In this document: positions 17,130 through 48,005 of the stretch, piece after piece
Layout: every line of letters begins with the position of its first letter
Numbering within the stretch: position 1 is the stretch's first letter
Position numbers and translations under genes: made by a program
Notes under the pieces: model-generated
What the model was told of the DNA's origin: nothing
Database searches by the model: none
Seen by the model: only the letters and a program-made list of their open reading frames with translations
Assembly: GCA_018830645.1 (NCBI GenBank)
Contig: JAHJSA010000050.1
Location: forward strand, 1 to 64,000
Length of the DNA: 64,000 nt
Origin: Actinomycetota bacterium
Lineage (GTDB): Bacteria; Actinomycetota; Thermoleophilia; RBG-16-64-13
Direction of reading: 5' to 3'

Positions 17130-18323
17130 CTACTTGGCAGTGGTGTACTCCTCCCACGTGTTCGGCACGATACTCACGCCGATCGTGTAGGCGCTGTTGA
17201 TCTGTTTCATGATGTTTCCGTTGTAGTTGATCTCCGGTGAGGCGCCTGTCCCTTTGTTGATGATGGTGCCGGATACGATCACCGAGCCGTAGATGCTGGC
17301 CGTACCACGGATCATGGCGTCACCTTTGATCACGATGATACCGTAGAAGTCACCGGTACCCTTGAGGTCGAGCCCCACCGTTTGGGTGCCCGCGTCGATC
17401 ACCAGCACCACCGGGTTCTCGCGCGAGCCGATCTGCGTGTTGCCCGAGATATCCACCACGCTGGTGGGGCTCTCGAGGTAGATGATCTTGCCACCCGCGT
17501 TGCCCGAGAAGAGAAGGGTGGCTGCCGGTGCCGCCGTCGTGAAGTAGGTGCCTTCGCTCTGCGCGATCCCTTTGAGCGAACCCATGAGCCCGGAGGCCAC
17601 CCAGCTGTCGAACGTACCGGCGGCGGACGGATTAGCCACCACGTTGGGGCCCAGATCGAGTCCCTTGGCTCCCACCTGGCTGTTGTAGAAGGCGGGCACG
17701 GACGTACCGTTGAGCGGAAGCGGCGCCGTCTGCAACGGGTCGATATCGATGTTCAGACCCTGGCCGTTGGCATCGAACGAACTCGTGTACATGGCGATCA
17801 GGGGAAAGGTCAAGTACCAGGCCTGGCGTTCGGCGAGGATGATGATGCGGTGACGGCTGTCATCCACGTTGGCCTCGCTGGCCACGTACATGAGGCCGTC
17901 GCCGTTCGAGTCCCAGGTGGGAGGGTTGGCGAGGCCGGTGTTGTCGTAGTACAGCACCTTGATGAAGTCGGCGGCCGGGGAGCGCGTCGGGTTGCGGAAC
18001 TTCGTGGCGTCGAAGTCGGCGCGGAGGGCCGTAGTGACGGCGCTGACCTTGGTGGTCGTCTGAGCATCGGCGGACGTGCTGGGCCACTTCGTCTTGAGGT
18101 CAAGCATGCCGTAGTCCACACCGGCTTCAGCCACGTTGAACGACTTGACCCCTTTCGATTCCAGGTCGGTCCCGAGGATGCTCGATTTCACCAAGAAGAA
18201 CAGAGCGAGCCCTATGGCCAGGAACACCATGGCGAACATCATGACGATCACGACGAGCGAGCCGTCTTCCGAGCGAACAAGCCGTGCCCCGAAAGATGTT
18301 CGATCCCTTGGGTGGTCGTTCAT
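17130..18323 (-). CDS. PilX-like pilus-assembly protein
   Basis: A 397-residue protein with a short charged N-terminus and one hydrophobic segment (about residues 24-47, SLVVIVMMFAMVFLAIGLAL region) preceded by EDG, resembling PilX_N proteins that accompany minor pilins. It lacks the canonical Glu5 of processed prepilins. The C-terminal half contains short beta-like repeats (KGTGDFYGIIVIKGDAMI, RGTASIYGSVIVSG) like those in bactofilin/polymer-forming segments. It is third in a minus-strand operon behind PilV- and PilW-like genes, which is the usual order. Function is inferred from this context; the exact family is uncertain. Confidence 0.7.
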   Translation of the reverse strand: MNDHPRDRTSFGARLVRSEDGSLVVIVMMFAMVFLAIGLALFFLVKSSILGTDLESKGVKSFNVAEAGVDYGMLDLKTKWPSTSADAQTTTKVSAVTTALRADFDATKFRNPTRSPAADFIKVLYYDNTGLANPPTWDSNGDGLMYVASEANVDDSRHRIIILAERQAWYLTFPLIAMYTSSFDANGQGLNIDIDPLQTAPLPLNGTSVPAFYNSQVGAKGLDLGPNVVANPSAAGTFDSWVASGLMGSLKGIAQSEGTYFTTAAPAATLLFSGNAGGKIIYLESPTSVVDISGNTQIGSRENPVVLVIDAGTQTVGLDLKGTGDFYGIIVIKGDAMIRGTASIYGSVIVSGTIINKGTGASPEINYNGNIMKQINSAYTIGVSIVPNTWEEYTTAK

Positions 18324-18338
18324 GGCGTTCCTCCTGCC

Positions 18339-19046
18339 TCAGTATGTTCTCAGGTTGCGCGGCTGGACGACGGACGTCAACTCGTGCACCACGGGGGCTC
18401 TGTCGGGGTCGATGTCCACCATGAGATGAATACGGATCGCGCGGATCTGCGTCACGTCAACAGAACGAGTCGTAGCATTGTGTGCGAGCTGCGAACCGAC
18501 AGAGTCGTAGTACTTGAACAAGGGCTTGGTTAATGAGGCCAGCGCCGTGCCCGGTGGGTCGTTCCTTATGTTCTCGTTCACCACGCGCACGGCGGTCGCC
18601 GTGAAGCTTCCGTCTTTGTTGGGAGATTCTTGGCGGAGGAGGTAGGAGTTGGTCCCGACCGTGCTGAGGTAGAAGCGCACGAGTTCGAGACTGTGGGCTG
18701 CGTCACGGTCTGTGTCGGTCCAGATCCAGATCTCTTCGGGAGTCGCCTTGGGTATCGGGGTGTCCAGGGTTTCGCTGACCACGGAGGCGGGCACCCGCGC
18801 CGTGCGTATGAACTCGACCATCTCGCCCATAGCCATGCGGGCCTGCTCCTGCGCGCGCATGTCGTCCTCGGTGAAGAGGTAGGTGTGCTCGAGCCGCGTC
18901 CAGACGGTAAAGACGGCGCCCATGACCACGACCATGAGCATCATCACCACGAGGAGCTCTACGAGCGTCACCCCCTCCTGGCCCCCACAGGCGCTGGAGC
19001 GCGCACGGATCGATCGGGATACTCGCATCATCATGAACGAACTCAC
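18339..19046 (-). CDS. Prepilin-type minor pilin, PilW-like
   Basis: A 235-residue protein with a class III signal: QEG|VTLVELLVVMMLMVVVMGAV, with cleavage expected after Gly and Glu at +5. The long hydrophobic helix is followed by a soluble domain. The GTG start is taken at 19046; an ATG cluster four codons later is equally possible. It lies 7 bp downstream of the PilV-like gene and 15 bp upstream of the PilX-like gene. By analogy, minor pilins of this kind prime pilus or pseudopilus assembly. Confidence 0.82.
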   Translation of the reverse strand: MSSFMMMRVSRSIRARSSACGGQEGVTLVELLVVMMLMVVVMGAVFTVWTRLEHTYLFTEDDMRAQEQARMAMGEMVEFIRTARVPASVVSETLDTPIPKATPEEIWIWTDTDRDAAHSLELVRFYLSTVGTNSYLLRQESPNKDGSFTATAVRVVNENIRNDPPGTALASLTKPLFKYYDSVGSQLAHNATTRSVDVTQIRAIRIHLMVDIDPDRAPVVHELTSVVQPRNLRTY

Positions 19047-19053
19047 ACTCCCA

Positions 19054-20568
19054 TCAGAAGATGTCCCAGACTTGGAGGCCGGCCTGAGCAGGCAGTTGGA
19101 ACGTCGTGTAGAGGGTGCGCGGCGACTTGTTGGTCACTTCGACCGCGGTTACGGCGTAGTTGCCCGGCGGGAGGTTGCTGATGGTCACTATCCCACCGTT
19201 CTTGGCGACCTGACCGGTGTACACGGTCACGCTGCTCGCGTTTTTCACAGTGAGGTTGAAAGGCTTGGGCGAGCTGTTCTTGATCTTGACGGAATAGAGT
19301 GCGGCGGTGCTGGTGGTGGTGCCGCCGGACGTCGTGGTAGTGGTGGACACGGTGGCGGCGGCGGGAAGCTGCTGCTGGAGCGTGACCGGCGTGCCCACCT
19401 TCCCGGCTATGTCGATACCCTTAAGGCTGTACTGGTACGTGTTGGTGGTGCCCGTCGTACCCCACGGGTCCTTGAGGGTGGCGGTACTGCCCACGTCGGT
19501 GTACGTGTTCGCTGTACCGAGGAGCGTGGTCACGGTCACCCAGGGGGTGCTCCACGTGCCCGCTGTATCGCGCTTGCGCCGCTCGAGCACCCAAGAGACA
19601 CGGTCTCGCTCCGCACCGGGGACCCAGCTGAGCAGGATCGTTTGGTTGTCGGCCACCTGGCCCATGAAGCTGGCAACGGCGTTCGGTGCGGCTTTCTCGA
19701 GGCGCACCCTCATCTTGTAGACGTTGCCCGGCTGATCGTACTCGTTGTAGGCGAGGGCCTCGACGTCCCAGTAGCCGTCGGGGATGGTGGCGCTGTCGAA
19801 GTTGTGCTCGAACCAGATGTCGTTCACCTTCCCGTCTCCGCCGAACGTGTGCTTCAGGGTTGAAGACGGGATCCTATACTCCAGCGCGGGATTCCCGAGC
19901 TGGATCCTCGCGCCTTGGTCGTCGACGAAGTCCAGTCTCAGGTAGACGTTCTTGGCGGCCATGCCCACTTGATTCAGGTTCTTGTAGACGAGGTCCCAAT
20001 CGCTGCGGGCGATATGGTACTTCGCCACGATGGTGCCGGACACGACGGGGAAGGGCGAGCCGAGTGGGTCGGGCGTGAGGTTGATGGCAGGCGTGAACTC
20101 GAGGAGGGAGCCCCGCGGCCCGAGGAACTGTTGGTGGATGAGCGTGCTAATGACCGCGGGATCGCCCTCCGGCTTCCCGATCCAGGAGACCGTCACGATC
20201 ACCTTCTTGAGTTGCCCGCCACCCGATGTGGAGTTGGCGACCGAGTACGCGATGTTATAGGTGTTGCCGCGCATGACGGCGGTCGTGCCGAGCAGATTGC
20301 TCAGGTTGGTGGGATCGGTGGGCGATGCCGTGTTCTCCTTGATCTCGCGGTAGTCGAGCTGGCGGATCTCTTCCAGCTTCTGCCTGGCCACGTTGGTGGC
20401 GGCACTCTTGAAGCGTGACGCCGAGGACTTCTCCAAGCCGCTCAGGAAGAACGGCAGAAAGCCGGCCAGCACGATGAGGAGCAGAAGGCTGGCGACCATG
20501 ACCTCGATGAGCGTGAAACCGGCCTGCGAACCATCATCGCGTCGGTTTCGGAAACGAATGTGTGTCAT
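19054..20568 (-). CDS. Large prepilin-type protein with FN3-like and C-terminal beta domains (PilV-like)
   Basis: A 504-residue protein beginning with a prepilin signal (SQAG|FTLIEVMVASLLLLIVLAG), much larger than a typical minor pilin. After the pilin module, residues about 310-400 resemble a fibronectin type III fold (DNQTILLSWVPG, TYQYSLKGIDIAGKVG), followed by a Thr-rich linker and a C-terminal beta domain like a carboxypeptidase regulatory domain (ISNLPPGNYAVTAVEV). Such a layout suggests a tip adhesin, which is an inference. It is first in the minus-strand operon and has GGAG eight bases before its ATG. Confidence 0.8.
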   Translation of the reverse strand: MTHIRFRNRRDDGSQAGFTLIEVMVASLLLLIVLAGFLPFFLSGLEKSSASRFKSAATNVARQKLEEIRQLDYREIKENTASPTDPTNLSNLLGTTAVMRGNTYNIAYSVANSTSGGGQLKKVIVTVSWIGKPEGDPAVISTLIHQQFLGPRGSLLEFTPAINLTPDPLGSPFPVVSGTIVAKYHIARSDWDLVYKNLNQVGMAAKNVYLRLDFVDDQGARIQLGNPALEYRIPSSTLKHTFGGDGKVNDIWFEHNFDSATIPDGYWDVEALAYNEYDQPGNVYKMRVRLEKAAPNAVASFMGQVADNQTILLSWVPGAERDRVSWVLERRKRDTAGTWSTPWVTVTTLLGTANTYTDVGSTATLKDPWGTTGTTNTYQYSLKGIDIAGKVGTPVTLQQQLPAAATVSTTTTTSGGTTTSTAALYSVKIKNSSPKPFNLTVKNASSVTVYTGQVAKNGGIVTISNLPPGNYAVTAVEVTNKSPRTLYTTFQLPAQAGLQVWDIF

Positions 20569-21947: not shown

Positions 21948-22144
21948 CTCAGGACCGTGGCGCGCCAATCCCCACCATCGAGCGTAGATACAGCGCTCAA
22001 GTGCGCGCCTATCCTGCCGATACGTGCAACGTAGACCCGGGAAGAGGTATGCCCGAACCCCGCAAGACGACGGCGACGATGAACACGGAAGATACATTTC
22101 CTGTCTAGAGTCGAGCGAGTCGGGAATACTTGGGTCGTAAGGTG

Positions 22145-22213
22145 TAAAGGGCAAACCACCCGCGAGGGTGGGACGCAAAGCTCCAGGGCCCAAGAGGCCG
22201 GCTGAGCCGCCAC
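22145..22213 (+). promoter_or_regulatory. Cyclic di-GMP-I (GEMM) riboswitch aptamer
   Basis: The conserved GEMM core is present in order: AAGGGCAAACC (22147-22157), a hairpin CACCC-GCGA-GGGTG with a GNRA tetraloop, GGGACGCAAAGC (about 22170-22181), then the second stem GGGCC-CAAGA-GGCC and GGCTGAGCCGCC. The GGGACGCAAAGC block and tetraloop stem are diagnostic of the class, which senses cyclic di-GMP. It lies about 100 nt before a type IV pilin gene, a known context for this riboswitch. A weak -10 (AATACT, 22125-22130) would start the transcript just upstream. Confidence 0.88.
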
Positions 22214-22224
22214 CGGTCCCTCGA

Positions 22225-22264
22225 GGTCTGTGGTTTGCCGAATGCGCCGCAGACCTTTTCGTTT
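22225..22264 (+). terminator. Riboswitch expression platform: intrinsic terminator
   Basis: GGTCTGTGG (22225-22233) pairs with CCGCAGACC (22247-22255), with one G-U, followed by TTTTCGTTT. The segment GTGGTTTGCC (22230-22239), which includes part of the terminator 5' arm, is perfectly complementary to GGCAAACCAC (22150-22159) in the aptamer. The two structures exclude each other, so ligand binding should free the terminator and turn transcription off. Confidence 0.82.
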
Positions 22265-22308
22265 GCCGCGCCAGATACGGTCGTGTTCTACATAAGGAGG
22301 TCGGAATC

Positions 22309-22791
22309 ATGTTGCAGGCAATCCGCAAGAGGATGCAGGGCGAAGGCGGCTTCACCCTCATCGAACTGTTGGTGGTGATCATCATCATCGCCATCCTCGC
22401 CGCAATCGCCATCCCCACCTTCCTGGGCCAGCGCCAGAAGGCTCAGGATGCGTCGGCCAAGTCGCTCGTGCGCAACGCGATGACGGCCATGGAGTCGCAG
22501 TACGTGGACTCGAAGACGTTCGTGGACAGTGCAGCGATGACTACCTCTCTGCAGTTGATCGAACCGTCGGTGACTTTCATCATCCTCGCGGATGCAGCAA
22601 CTGTATCGACGGTCAACGCAACGGCCTTGGCCCAACTTGCACAAGTGAACTACGCGGGCACAAGCAACACATACTCGATCGGTTCGGTGTCTGAATCGGA
22701 CAACAAGTTCGGCGTGTTCGTAAACAAGGGCGCATCTGGTGGCACCACCTTCGTGAAGGTCATCGGTTCCATCTCCAGCACCGGCTGGTAG
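22309..22791 (+). CDS. Type IV major-pilin-like prepilin (riboswitch controlled)
   Basis: A 160-residue prepilin with a short leader MLQAIRKRMQGEGG|FTLIELLVVIIIIAILAAIA: cleavage after Gly14, Phe at +1, Glu at +5, then the polymerisation helix. The remainder is a small globular domain with no Cys pair. AAGGAGG at 22294-22300 is a strong Shine-Dalgarno for ATG 22309; in-frame codons further upstream lie in the riboswitch. Size, strong SD and its own promoter-riboswitch-terminator unit suggest a highly expressed major pilin; this is an inference. A clear terminator follows at 22831. Confidence 0.9.
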   Translation: MLQAIRKRMQGEGGFTLIELLVVIIIIAILAAIAIPTFLGQRQKAQDASAKSLVRNAMTAMESQYVDSKTFVDSAAMTTSLQLIEPSVTFIILADAATVSTVNATALAQLAQVNYAGTSNTYSIGSVSESDNKFGVFVNKGASGGTTFVKVIGSISSTGW

Positions 22792-22830
22792 GAAGCGACG
22801 CCGGGCGCACTTCTGTGGGCCTAGAGTTCG

Positions 22831-22866
22831 AAAAGGATCCCGCTTCGGCGGGGTCCTTTTCTTTCG
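22831..22866 (+). terminator. Rho-independent terminator after the pilin gene
   Basis: AAAAGGATCCCGC (22831-22843), loop TTCG, GCGGGGTCCTTTT (22848-22860) with one G-U pair, then further T residues. A textbook terminator that makes the pilin a single-gene transcript. Confidence 0.9.
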
Positions 22867-24436: not shown

Positions 24437-24946
24437 GTGTTAAACGGTGAGCGTGAGCGAGGTCCCGGCTACCCCCAGCAGAGCGGTTTCACGCTCATAG
24501 AGCTTCTCGTGGTCATCATCATCATCGCCGCCCTCGCGGCCATCGCGATCCCTACGTACCTGGGAACGAGGAGCCAAGCGCAAGATACCGCGGCGCTGGC
24601 CTCGATCAGGAATGCGCTGACGGTGGTGGAGAGCGCCCGTGTCGATGCTCCGAACTACGCGGTGTTGACCGTGGCCGATCTCGCGAAGATCGAGCCGGAC
24701 ATCGCGTGGCGCGTGGCTACCGCGGACCTCGTGGACGCCGGCAGCCTTCAGGTGACCGCAGCAGCAACCGCCGAAGCGTCGAAGAAGGAGATGGACTTCT
24801 ACGGGCAGGCTTGGGACACCTTCGATCTCGCCGTCGTGAGCGCGAGTGGCAACAAGTATGGTATCGAAGTGAGGGTCTCGGGAGGGGTCGGCGTCACCTA
24901 TCTCAAAGTGAAGGTCCTCGAGGGCATCACCAGCACCACGTGGTGA
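24437..24946 (+). CDS. Type IV prepilin (second pilin)
   Basis: A 169-residue prepilin with cleavage expected at QQSG|FTLIELLVVIIIIAALAAIA and Glu at +5. The N-terminal helix is nearly identical to that of the pilin at 22309, but the globular domain differs, so this is a paralogue rather than a recent copy. The start is taken as GTG 24437; no strong Shine-Dalgarno is seen. It has its own promoter at 24286. It may be an alternative major pilin or the main subunit of a pseudopilus with the four genes that follow. Confidence 0.88.
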   Translation: MLNGERERGPGYPQQSGFTLIELLVVIIIIAALAAIAIPTYLGTRSQAQDTAALASIRNALTVVESARVDAPNYAVLTVADLAKIEPDIAWRVATADLVDAGSLQVTAAATAEASKKEMDFYGQAWDTFDLAVVSASGNKYGIEVRVSGGVGVTYLKVKVLEGITSTTW

Positions 24947-25083
24947 TCTTCAGGCAGAATCTCAGGCGGGGCCGCTGAGCGACCCGGCGAGAGCGACGAC
25001 ATGGCGCCGCTGCTGCCACCCCGCCGCCACAGTCCTACTTCAGTCTGATTCTCTCGAGCATCTCACTCGCCTATCGTGCGGGC

Positions 25084-25575
25084 ATGATGTCGCCCTACCT
25101 CCACTTGCTTCCTCGCCCGCGGAACCTTGAGGCCGAGCCGGGCCACACCCTCATCGAGCTGCTCGTCGCACTCGCGCTTGTCTCCGTATGTATGGCTCTG
25201 CCCGTCTCGAGCATGATCGCGGTCTTCGACCAGCAGTTGAATCGCAACAATGCGCTGATCTGTCAGACGGCCGCGGCCGCCGCACAGGTAGGCGCGCTCA
25301 CCTCGGCTTCGGGGCGCACCGTGGCCTGGGACGCCGAAGGTCTGACGGTCTCACCTGATGGTGGCACTGGTGTGCGATTCCTCGTCGCCGGTGTTGGTTC
25401 CGGCCTAGGTACCAACGTATCGCGATGGCGGCGGGGGGGTGGTGTGAGCGTTCGCTTCGTCCCCGTGACGGCGTCGCCCGATTCAGCGGGTTCCGTGTAC
25501 TTCGGTGACGAGGGCAAGGGGCAGAGGGTGGTGGTGCGGCTGGAGAGCGGACTCACTCGAAGGGAATCCCGGTGA
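25084..25575 (+). CDS. Prepilin-type minor pilin, GspH/FimT-like
   Basis: A 163-residue protein with class III signal EPG|HTLIELLVALALVSVCMALP; the residue at +1 is His rather than Phe, but Glu at +5 is kept. The size and soluble domain suit a GspH/FimT-type minor pilin. A TATCGT hexamer ends six bases before ATG 25084, so the mRNA may be leaderless. The gene overlaps the next by GTGA, beginning a four-gene run with overlaps throughout. Confidence 0.8.
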   Translation: MMSPYLHLLPRPRNLEAEPGHTLIELLVALALVSVCMALPVSSMIAVFDQQLNRNNALICQTAAAAAQVGALTSASGRTVAWDAEGLTVSPDGGTGVRFLVAGVGSGLGTNVSRWRRGGGVSVRFVPVTASPDSAGSVYFGDEGKGQRVVVRLESGLTRRESR

Positions 25576-26321
25576 GAGCGTTGCGCCGTACTCGGCGCCG
25601 CGCGCAGGAGGGCGGGTCTACGCTCGTCGAGCTCTTGGCGGCGCTCACGATGGTGTCACTTCTTCTTGTGCCGCTCACCAGTGCCGTCCTCCGGCTCCGG
25701 GAACACGTGATCGACTCGTGGGGCGCCTCCCTCGAAGATGCTTCCACTGCCGGGAATGCGGATTCCGAGCATCGACGGCTGTGGAGGTGGTCGGATGTGA
25801 CCGTCGTTGCAGCGACCCCGATTCGAAACGGCGTCGAGGTGATGGTGAGAGGAGGGCGCCGCGACCGCGACCGAGAGATCGGGTGGTGGGTAAACGGATG
25901 GCCTGCGGGACGCTCCGCGGTGGACGCCACAGGCAGGGCGCTCGCTTCCACGGGGGAAGTCGCGAACTCGAGCGACACTGTGCTCACGATACGGGCCCGC
26001 GAGCAGGGAGGGGGCTGGGGAGTGCCCTGGCGGGTGGTGTTGGGCTCTGCAACGGCCGAGGTTCGTCCCGGGTCGCTGGGTGGCGCATCCTCGCCCTCCA
26101 GCGGCGGCCCCGGAGAAGGCGGGGCGGTCGCTGTGGTCCATATGAGGATACCGGGCCAGGGGCTACTGGATCCGGGCGACTCGAACCTGCCGGGCCTCCT
26201 TGCGCCAACGGGCGACGCACTGACGCTGTTCATGCCATCGGGCGTCGCGAGTCTGTCCTGCGACGGCGAACTACAATCCCTGCTTGTCGAACCCGGATCG
26301 GTGACGCATGTCTTCTTCTGA
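25572..26321 (+). CDS. Prepilin-type minor pilin
   Basis: A 249-residue protein with basic leader MRALRRTRRRAQEGG|STLVELLAALTMVSLLLVPL, cleaved before Ser with Glu at +5. The soluble part is rich in Gly and Ser and I cannot place it in a named GspI/GspJ group. GTG 25572 overlaps the previous stop by four bases and its end overlaps the following gene by 14 bp, so the set is translated together. Confidence 0.78.
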   Translation: MRALRRTRRRAQEGGSTLVELLAALTMVSLLLVPLTSAVLRLREHVIDSWGASLEDASTAGNADSEHRRLWRWSDVTVVAATPIRNGVEVMVRGGRRDRDREIGWWVNGWPAGRSAVDATGRALASTGEVANSSDTVLTIRAREQGGGWGVPWRVVLGSATAEVRPGSLGGASSPSSGGPGEGGAVAVVHMRIPGQGLLDPGDSNLPGLLAPTGDALTLFMPSGVASLSCDGELQSLLVEPGSVTHVFF

Positions 26322-26898
26322 GCGGGGCTTCACAGTCGTTGAGGTCTTGGTGTGCATGACGCTGTCGCTCACTCTGATGCTGGGGGTGGCGCCGTTGTGG
26401 ATCTCACTGCAATCGGCCGCGGTGGCGGCTCAGGAATCGGCCATCGCTCACGGCGCGTGGCGCGTGGCATCCGCCAGGCTCGAGCGCGACCTTCGCGGGG
26501 CGACCACCGAAGGCGCGACGGGCTTGGGGCCGAACCCTCTTCTCCAAGCCGCAACGACCGAGGTCGTCTTCGTCACCCGCGATCCCCGCACCGGAGCGCT
26601 CGAGATCGTGGAGTGGGAGGTGGCCGGCAGTTCGCTGATGCGACGCCGGAGGCCGTGGCCCGGCCTGCCACCCACTGCTCTGTCACATGGCGCCTTCTCC
26701 GACCACAAGACCATGCTGGAGGGGGTGAGTTCCGGGAGCTTCACGTTGGTATCGGGGGATTCCACGGTAGCCGGCAGTACGTACCCGGAGAAGGCGCCTG
26801 GTGTAGACATGGTGCGCTTTGCGGCGACGATCATCGGAGGCTCGCCAGCAGGAAGACACCGCCTTGGGGTCGCGAGTGAAATGAGCTTCGGATGGTAG
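26308..26898 (+). CDS. Prepilin-type minor pilin, PilW/GspJ-like
   Basis: A 196-residue protein with a very short leader, MSSSERG|FTVVEVLVCMTLSLTLMLGVAP, Glu at +5. The arrangement W-R-V-A-S-A-R-L-E-R-D-L-R after the helix resembles the GspJ/PilW pattern where a helix carries an RLERDL motif. It overlaps both neighbours, and it is the only set member with a standard Phe at +1 in this four-gene cluster. Confidence 0.8.
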   Translation: MSSSERGFTVVEVLVCMTLSLTLMLGVAPLWISLQSAAVAAQESAIAHGAWRVASARLERDLRGATTEGATGLGPNPLLQAATTEVVFVTRDPRTGALEIVEWEVAGSSLMRRRRPWPGLPPTALSHGAFSDHKTMLEGVSSGSFTLVSGDSTVAGSTYPEKAPGVDMVRFAATIIGGSPAGRHRLGVASEMSFGW

Positions 26899-27899
26899 GA
26901 CGCCCGATGCCGCGGGCGGTTCGCCCTTCACGCCTCGCCCATGTGACGCGCGGGCGATGCCAGCCCCGTCTCCTGTCGGAGCAACGCGGTTCCGTTCTGC
27001 TCGCGACACTGATGATGTGCTTGGGTCTCAGCGCGACGGCGCTCGCCCTGGCCACCGTGGCCGATCTGTCTCGACTCCTCATCGTGGAAGACGAACTCGC
27101 TCGCCAAACCCTTTCTCAGGCCGACGTGGGCCTCGCCTCCGTCGTCTGGGCCGCCACCGAAAAGCCGCTCGCCCGCACCTTGGAGGTGCCGGGGCTCGCG
27201 TATGCCCGGATCGAGGAGTCGCCCGGTGCAGCTCCGTTCAGCATGGTCCTTGTCGCAGGCGTACCGGTAGATGGCGGATCCCTCGAGGTGCGGGCCCGCC
27301 TGGAGCGGGCGGCTGATGGGATCGACCTGCCGGATCGTGCGCTGGTGGCGGCGAATGCGAATGCCGCGGAGGGCCGTCTTCTCGCTGACATGGTCTGCGG
27401 CAGCGGTGAGACGCCGGCCCGCGTGTCTCTTCGTTCGCCGAGTCCTCTCTCCGCGCACTCCTCTTCGCTGGAAGTCGACTTCGGTCGGGCGTGGGCACTC
27501 GATGAGGGGCAGGTGGTCGTGCTGGAGCAGGCGGCGGACGTGTCGTCGAGTCGGGTGGTCCTCGCAGAAGTGGGATTGGCAGGTAGACCCCAGTTGAGGG
27601 CGGCGCAGGGGACGGCGCCGGAGTGCCCCGTGCTGGTGGTGGGCGGCCGGGGCGTGCCGCTGGACCTCACCGGCTTCGGAGACTTGTACGGGGTCGCTCT
27701 CGCAGGTGACCTCGGCGTGCGCTTGGAGGGCACCACGTTGTACGGCGGAGTGTTCACCTCGGGAGAGGTTCGCTTTGGCCAGAGCGGACGGATCCTCGAC
27801 TCTCCCACCGTGAGACGCTGGGCTTCCACCGCGAGTCTCCCGGTGGTGCGTCTTGTACCAGGCACCCGACGGGACGTGGTGGTGGGTGGGGGCGGGTAG
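26892..27899 (+). CDS. PilX/GspK-like protein of the pilus cluster
   Basis: A 335-residue protein with a 30-residue basic N-terminus and a hydrophobic segment EQRGSVLLATLMMCLGLSATALALA that resembles GspK/PilX N-termini, which lack the standard Glu5. The C-terminal half contains beta-repeat-like sequence (DLYGVALAGDLGVRLEGTTLYGGVFTSG given only as a landmark in 18-residue pieces) similar in style to the minus-strand protein at 17130. The two therefore look like counterparts in two parallel prepilin sets. Start is ATG 26892 or ATG 26907. Confidence 0.7.
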   Translation: MVGRPMPRAVRPSRLAHVTRGRCQPRLLSEQRGSVLLATLMMCLGLSATALALATVADLSRLLIVEDELARQTLSQADVGLASVVWAATEKPLARTLEVPGLAYARIEESPGAAPFSMVLVAGVPVDGGSLEVRARLERAADGIDLPDRALVAANANAAEGRLLADMVCGSGETPARVSLRSPSPLSAHSSSLEVDFGRAWALDEGQVVVLEQAADVSSSRVVLAEVGLAGRPQLRAAQGTAPECPVLVVGGRGVPLDLTGFGDLYGVALAGDLGVRLEGTTLYGGVFTSGEVRFGQSGRILDSPTVRRWASTASLPVVRLVPGTRRDVVVGGGG

Positions 27900-47831: not shown

Positions 47832-47865
47832 CCCCGATGTCTGCGTGAGCAGATCAAAGAAACGG

Positions 47866-47976
47866 TCTTCAGGGACGGGTGAGATTCCCTACCGGCGGTG
47901 ACAGCCCGCGAGCCCCACGGGGCCGACCAGGTGCGATTCCTGGGCCGACAGTGAAAGTCTGGATGGAAGAAGGCCG
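47866..47976 (+). promoter_or_regulatory. FMN riboswitch (RFN element)
   Basis: The RFN consensus is followed throughout: TCTTCAGGGACGGGTGAGA, TTCCCTACCGGCGGTGACAG, CCCGCGAGCCCC, GACCAGGTGCGATTCCTGG, GCCGACAGTGAAAGTCTGG, ATGGAAGAAGG. It binds flavin mononucleotide and, in front of rib genes, lowers their expression. A terminator directly follows. Confidence 0.97.
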
Positions 47977-48005
47977 GCGCGCTTGGGTGCGCCACCCACC
48001 CCTGA

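Follow-up and report, generated by a model that had tools for sequence, protein, structure and literature searches.

A predicted c-di-GMP OFF riboswitch upstream of a type IV pilin gene in uncultured Actinomycetota, with a conserved arm beyond its terminator

The pilin locus and its leader

The window (the whole 64,000-nucleotide stretch of Actinomycetota DNA that was analyzed) contains a type IV pilin gene, matched by PF07963 (N_methyl, 31.9 bits) and TIGR02532 (30.4 bits), whose start codon is the ATG at 22309. It is preceded by a structured leader, and the regulatory feature extends upstream to a promoter-like element (22102) and downstream to approximately 22271. The elements of the locus are the following:

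22102-22130, + strand: conserved promoter-like element, TGTCTA (22102-22107), 17 nt and AATACT (22125-22130), from the comparison of upstream regions
22140-22214, + strand: c-di-GMP-I (GEMM-I) aptamer, from its RF01051 match and helix pairs kept in relatives
22150-22159, + strand: strand A, GGCAAACCAC, formed by J1/2 and the P2 5' strand; predicted antiterminator partner within the aptamer, from its pairing with T5 in relatives
22215-22218, + strand: P0 arm, pairing over a few bases with the 5' half of T5, weakly in the window, from own versus swapped partners
22224-22239, + strand: T5, the terminator 5' arm (22224-22233) and the overlapping antiterminator strand GTGGTTTGCC (22230-22239), from the conservation of TTTGCC
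22247-22259, + strand: T3, the 3' arm of the terminator (22247-22256), continued by the U-tract (22256-22259), from the stable hairpin and its covarying stem
22261-22271, + strand: PT, a post-terminator arm that pairs with 22244-22254 and leaves the U-tract in the loop, from T3:PT covariation
22294-22301, + strand: Shine-Dalgarno sequence AAGGAGGT, read from the sequence
22309-22791, + strand: type IV pilin, the regulated gene, 160 aa, with the prepilin signal GFTLIELLVV
22830-22861, + strand: intrinsic terminator 3' of the pilin, hairpin of -25.0 kcal/mol with a T-rich end

Because this second terminator follows the pilin, the pilin appears to be the sole regulated gene, and the switch probably controls a single-gene transcript. 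More prepilin-like genes (pseudopilins) surround the regulated pilin, at 17130-20568 on the - strand and 24437-27899 on the + strand, and an O-antigen-ligase-like gene sits between the two pilins of the window. Farther downstream, an FMN riboswitch occupies positions 47861-47978 (111.5 bits).

A previous sequence-only reading had found the right locus and had described the aptamer, the terminator and the complementarity between them; it placed the aptamer start at 22145 instead of 22140, and the promoter, the extended P1 helix and the post-terminator arm were overlooked.

The aptamer and the terminator

The proposal that the leader contains a class I c-di-GMP aptamer was borne out by the covariance model of Rfam (RF01051, c-di-GMP-I), which matches positions 22140-22214 of the + strand over its full length with 54.7 bits (gathering score 35, E 6e-8). 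The extended P1 is formed by 22141-22144/22211-22214, P2 by 22156-22161/22166-22171 closed by the GNRA tetraloop GCGA, and the conserved GEMM-I motifs GGCAAACC and GGGACGCAAAGC are both present. Among 23 relatives, 84-100% of the pairs in the aptamer helices are kept, with two-sided changes in P1, P2 and P3. In the RF01051 alignment the ligand-selectivity position, which we take to be the equivalent of Vc2 G20, is a G at 22150. The RNA element is a GEMM-I riboswitch, for which c-di-GMP is the predicted ligand.

Between the aptamer and the pilin gene lies an intrinsic terminator (22224-22259), also as proposed. Its hairpin reaches -20.5 kcal/mol against a shuffle mean of -9.9 (z -5.0), and none of 200 shuffles is as stable. 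The stem (22224-22233/22247-22256) covaries, with two-sided changes at six of its ten pairs among relatives, and leads into a short U-tract at 22256-22259 (TTTTCGTTTG).

Complementarity between the aptamer and T5

Strand A and the antiterminator strand of T5 are perfect complements over ten bases, exactly as had been claimed. The conservation of this match was evaluated in GEMM-I loci from the window's own genome and 149 relatives (69 genomes with matches), a sample of 146 loci once the weakest few were omitted; these sequences are contigs of metagenome-assembled genomes (MAGs). The criterion was a perfect Watson-Crick complement of at least 8 bases to the same aptamer segment, no more than 80 nt downstream, which dinucleotide shuffles produce by chance in approximately 2% of such loci. 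It was found in 23 of 34 pilin-linked loci of families f1, f6 and f3, where 0.5 were expected: 8 of 10 in f1, the window's family (expected 0.23), 12 of 14 in f6 (0.17) and 3 of 10 in f3 (0.10). None of the 63 non-pilin GEMM-I loci of these three families has such a complement, and neither does any of the 11 pilin GEMM-I loci of other families. The sequence-only reading had staked its proposal on a covariance-model match and on conservation of the complementarity in related genomes, and both were found.

In an alignment of 23 switches, 95.7% of the aptamer-T5 cells are paired, versus 29-45% when one strand is slid by 1-3 columns. The same alignment contains no double changes in this helix, so the pairing is conserved without the covariation that the earlier reading had suggested as a check, an outcome explained by ligand binding, which fixes the aptamer side. 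On the side of T5, the TTTGCC within the terminator loop is kept in 20-22 of the 23 sequences, and most of the loop bases that follow it are not; this segment, dispensable for the terminator, shows the conservation expected of a partner of the aptamer. The P0 arm, next to the aptamer, pairs with the 5' half of T5 in a further helix, weaker yet maintained (p 0.00025, an optimistic value, since the permutations do not preserve all relatedness), which probably belongs to the antiterminator.

Folding and the polarity of the switch

The order of events was approached by folding the window transcript at successive 3' ends, all energies being predictions. The aptamer is the minimum-energy fold up to 22235. 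From 22239 onward the antiterminator takes its place (-47.9 vs -42.4 kcal/mol with P2 forced). It is still preferred over aptamer plus terminator once the U-tract is reached (-66.2 vs -60.3 kcal/mol), a ligand-free advantage of approximately 6 kcal/mol. Given the published affinities of GEMM-I aptamers, bound ligand could pay about that amount, and c-di-GMP bound before T5 emerges could offset the advantage of the antiterminator. Among relatives, the antiterminator is predicted to form once T5 has been made in nearly all or most sequences; in about half of them the terminator is favored at the U-tract even without ligand, which means that switching there would have to be kinetic.

The polarity is indicated by the coordinates. 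Terminator and aptamer occupy separate stretches, and the antiterminator excludes both; a terminator compatible with the aptamer and an antiterminator incompatible with it imply that the ligand turns the gene off. The element is best read as an OFF riboswitch that responds to c-di-GMP at the level of transcription and governs a type IV pilin gene, a reading to which we give a probability of roughly 0.8. The geometry, the conserved complementarity and the predicted folding support the same polarity in the sequence-only reading.

The proposed mechanism is as follows. The RNA would start at approximately 22137, judging by the conserved promoter, and according to the folding the aptamer would form first. 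With c-di-GMP bound, P2 would stay closed, T5 would pair with T3 and the polymerase would stop at the U-tract, leaving the pilin OFF. Without ligand, newly made T5 would draw strand 22150-22159 out of P2, and the resulting antiterminator, in which the ligand-selectivity G at 22150 is buried, would allow read-through into the pilin (ON). After read-through, PT could pair with the freed T3.

The post-terminator arm

An arm located 3' of the U-tract is present in nearly every member of the group, and can pair with T3 and with part of the terminator loop. The pairing of T3 with its own PT averages -16.1 kcal/mol, versus -10.6 ± 0.6 kcal/mol with swapped PTs (0 of 20,000 permutations, a test that keeps column make-up and not all relatedness, so that its p-values are optimistic), and the result holds on 17 representatives. 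Two further observations are free of the relatedness problem. The first is a control with 27 non-pilin GEMM-I terminators from the same search, which lack the arm (-9.7 vs -9.7 kcal/mol shuffled); in 25 pilin switches the same measure gives -16.4 vs -9.1. The second is a double change between the two species of the window's genus, where T3 has undergone an A to G change (22253) and PT a T to C change (22262), which together keep the PT pair and weaken the terminator pair.

Since PT is transcribed only once the polymerase has passed the U-tract, it has no effect on the first-pass decision. The simplest role that can be assigned to it, tentatively and at somewhat less than even odds, is that of a latch on the ON-state leader, which would keep T3 from pairing with T5 again in the completed mRNA. 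It is quite possible, if also short of an even chance, that PT has no switching role and is a leftover duplicate of T5 or a mere mRNA-stabilizing 5' stem, which would be compatible with the OFF reading. In locus L049 the arm is indeed a copy of T5, and in the window the PT hairpin lies 2.8 kcal/mol above the minimum-energy fold, because 22141-22146 can also pair with 22243-22248. Against this stand two observations: the PT bases whose partners lie in the terminator loop, where T5 does not pair, covary as well (again 0 of 20,000 permutations, with the same optimism), and the change within the genus was made despite the weaker terminator pair. A function as an anti-Shine-Dalgarno strand was considered and rejected, as no complement is seen in PT and predicted accessibility follows no clear pattern. 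A post-terminator arm for GEMM-I switches is not described in the open-licence papers searched.

The promoter and candidate sigma factors

No match to a sigma-70 consensus was found upstream of the aptamer; the comparison of upstream regions gave instead the conserved non-consensus element listed above, whose six-base box, preceded by GGG, is AATACT in the window and CATACT or TAGTAT elsewhere. Among 33 pilin-linked GEMM-I loci of families f1, f6 and f3, 25 carry the motif with constant spacing to the aptamer; the 13 pilin loci from other families and the 99 non-pilin GEMM-I loci all lack it. This constant spacing implies that the leader starts at the aptamer, and the transcription start predicted from it would lie just 5' of that structure. 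The motif did not serve as a regulon marker: at no more than one mismatch, its sole match in the window's genome is the one described here.

The genes pilB, pilT and pilC are adjacent to one another approximately 72 kb away on the same contig. In this cluster, the end of pilC is overlapped by the gene of a sigma factor similar to SigB/F/G (L203:12219-13181; own contig C43, at ~98 kb); a second, stronger SigBFG homologue follows an RsbW-like gene in the vicinity (L203:2236-3054, at ~88 kb). The factor encoded at the end of pilC might be the one that recognizes the pilin promoter.

A different motif, TAAAG-N15-CCGAT, similar to those of sigma-28 (FliA/WhiG), lies 5' of 10 of the 13 pilin GEMM-I loci of families f5, f7 and f9 (L078, L087, L090, L091, L095, L113-L115, L130 and L134) and of 18 of 100 non-pilin GEMM-I loci. 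Its occurrence suggests that a motility-type sigma factor may drive many c-di-GMP switch genes in the phylum.

Distribution and other GEMM-I platforms

More than 20 uncultured Actinomycetota without flagellin share the switch together with its PT arm. With a covariance model built on the complete architecture, scores above 100 bits were obtained in 24 of 399 genomes of the class, all from f1, f6 and f3, and nothing comparable appears in the rest of the class or in 396 genomes of the phylum; 23 of the 24 high-scoring sequences, or their equals, were input to the model, so the absence elsewhere is informative and the high scores are not. When 84,980 species genomes were scanned for the pattern, 14 records emerged, largely from the same genomes, all of them MAGs of uncultured Actinomycetota.

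Pilin genes with a GEMM-I aptamer on other platforms are common in the phylum. The idea that all pilin-linked GEMM-I switches follow the scheme of the window was discarded, given that those of f5, f7 and f9 lack an upstream terminator and the complement, and that other Actinomycetota families rely on different terminators in their pilin switches. In L189 and L190, from another family, the terminator loop of the pilin switch (ACTTAGACC) is complementary to aptamer P3 (GGTCTAAGT), which points to an independently built competition between aptamer and terminator. Paired GEMM-I elements approximately 800-900 nt apart occur within single genomes (L109/L118, L085/L120 and L114/L115); each is 5' of a pilin where annotated, and the pairs represent duplicated switch-pilin cassettes. 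The window's genome has two GEMM-I elements. The second one (L001, contig C11:110480-110558) lies upstream of a gene for a secreted GHL15 glycosyl hydrolase, approximately 17 nt from its likely start codon; no terminator was found at this element, which probably acts on translation. Finally, five aptamers (L041, L050, L054, L065 and L088) have A at the ligand-selectivity position, and are candidates for cGAMP or mixed sensing in Actinomycetota.

Comparison with known systems and alternative readings

A relay of overlapping alternative helices, as proposed for the window switch, is the principle of trp-type attenuators; unlike in these, the last helix lies beyond the terminator U-tract and forms only after read-through. 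A close likeness is to Cd1 of Clostridioides difficile, upstream of flgB, also a GEMM-I element and a transcriptional OFF switch, with a terminator compatible with the aptamer and an antiterminator that destroys the pocket (PMC9262584; PMC6366702). The antiterminator of Cd1 takes the 3' aptamer strand (G86, C87; PMC9262584), whereas that of the window takes the 5' strand (J1/2 and the P2 5' strand); Cd1 controls flagella and the window switch a pilin, and only the latter has a post-terminator arm. The window element is thus a GEMM-I riboswitch with a distinct platform, made of an unusual 5'-strand antiterminator and a post-terminator arm. No report of GEMM-I elements with pilins in Actinomycetota was found in the open-licence literature.

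The OFF reading has to be weighed against others. The leader might be a constitutive or kinetically fixed attenuator, whose aptamer binds c-di-GMP while pilin transcription hardly changes, as reported for Bc1 of Bacillus thuringiensis (PMC11218506); several relatives do fold to the terminator without ligand. Nevertheless, the TTTGCC of the terminator loop, used only by the antiterminator, is selectively conserved, and the complementarity is kept at pilin loci only, which makes a fixed attenuator improbable.

The polarity of class I switches cannot be carried over from one species to another (PMC6366702), and an ON switch has precedents. In C. difficile, where high c-di-GMP promotes pili, the class II switch of pilA1 (Cdi-2-4) also places a type IV pilin under c-di-GMP control through transcription termination, with another aptamer class and ON polarity (PMC6366702), and the pilM switch of Geobacter metallireducens combines a GEMM-I-type aptamer, a pilus gene and transcriptional control with cGAMP as ligand, ON polarity and mutually exclusive terminator and aptamer (PMC9262584). 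The PilB of the window's genome, with its MshE-type c-di-GMP-binding domain, would also fit such a reading. In the window, however, the terminator shares no bases with the aptamer, and among competitors that precede the terminator just one is conserved, the helix that disrupts the aptamer, which leads to OFF; an ON switch is therefore very improbable. Equally far-fetched is 3',3'-cGAMP as the ligand, which Geobacter GEMM-I variants do sense and which the five aptamers with A would suit, since the window and nearly all of the pilin group have G at the position of 22150.

c-di-GMP, pili and motility

The window's genome has 16 matches to GGDEF and one to EAL. Its PilB (L203:8164-9882) carries the MshE-type domain at the N-terminus (NF053729, 66.5 bits), so that c-di-GMP probably acts on the pilus motor too, besides the pilin RNA. 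If the OFF reading is true, c-di-GMP would have two targets with opposite effects, namely the motor protein and the supply of new pilin. No flagellin was found in this genome, and among the relatives flagellin occurs only in families f2, f4, f7, f8 and f9 and in none of f1, f3 and f6, an association that is confounded by phylogeny.

The most inclusive proposal is a four-strand relay, in which PT either locks the leader in its ON state or opens mRNA that has leaked through the OFF state to a second control, in bacteria without flagellin where the pilin replaces flagellar genes under OFF control by c-di-GMP; taken as a whole, it is on the doubtful side. The covarying PT adds a concrete element to the ways in which a transcriptional riboswitch may keep its ON state. 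The predicted polarity is opposite to that of the class II pilin switch of C. difficile, in which c-di-GMP turns pili on. If it is correct, type IV pili would be the motile-state organelle of these uncultured Actinomycetota, which have PilT and no flagellin, and pili may be regulated there as flagella are elsewhere.
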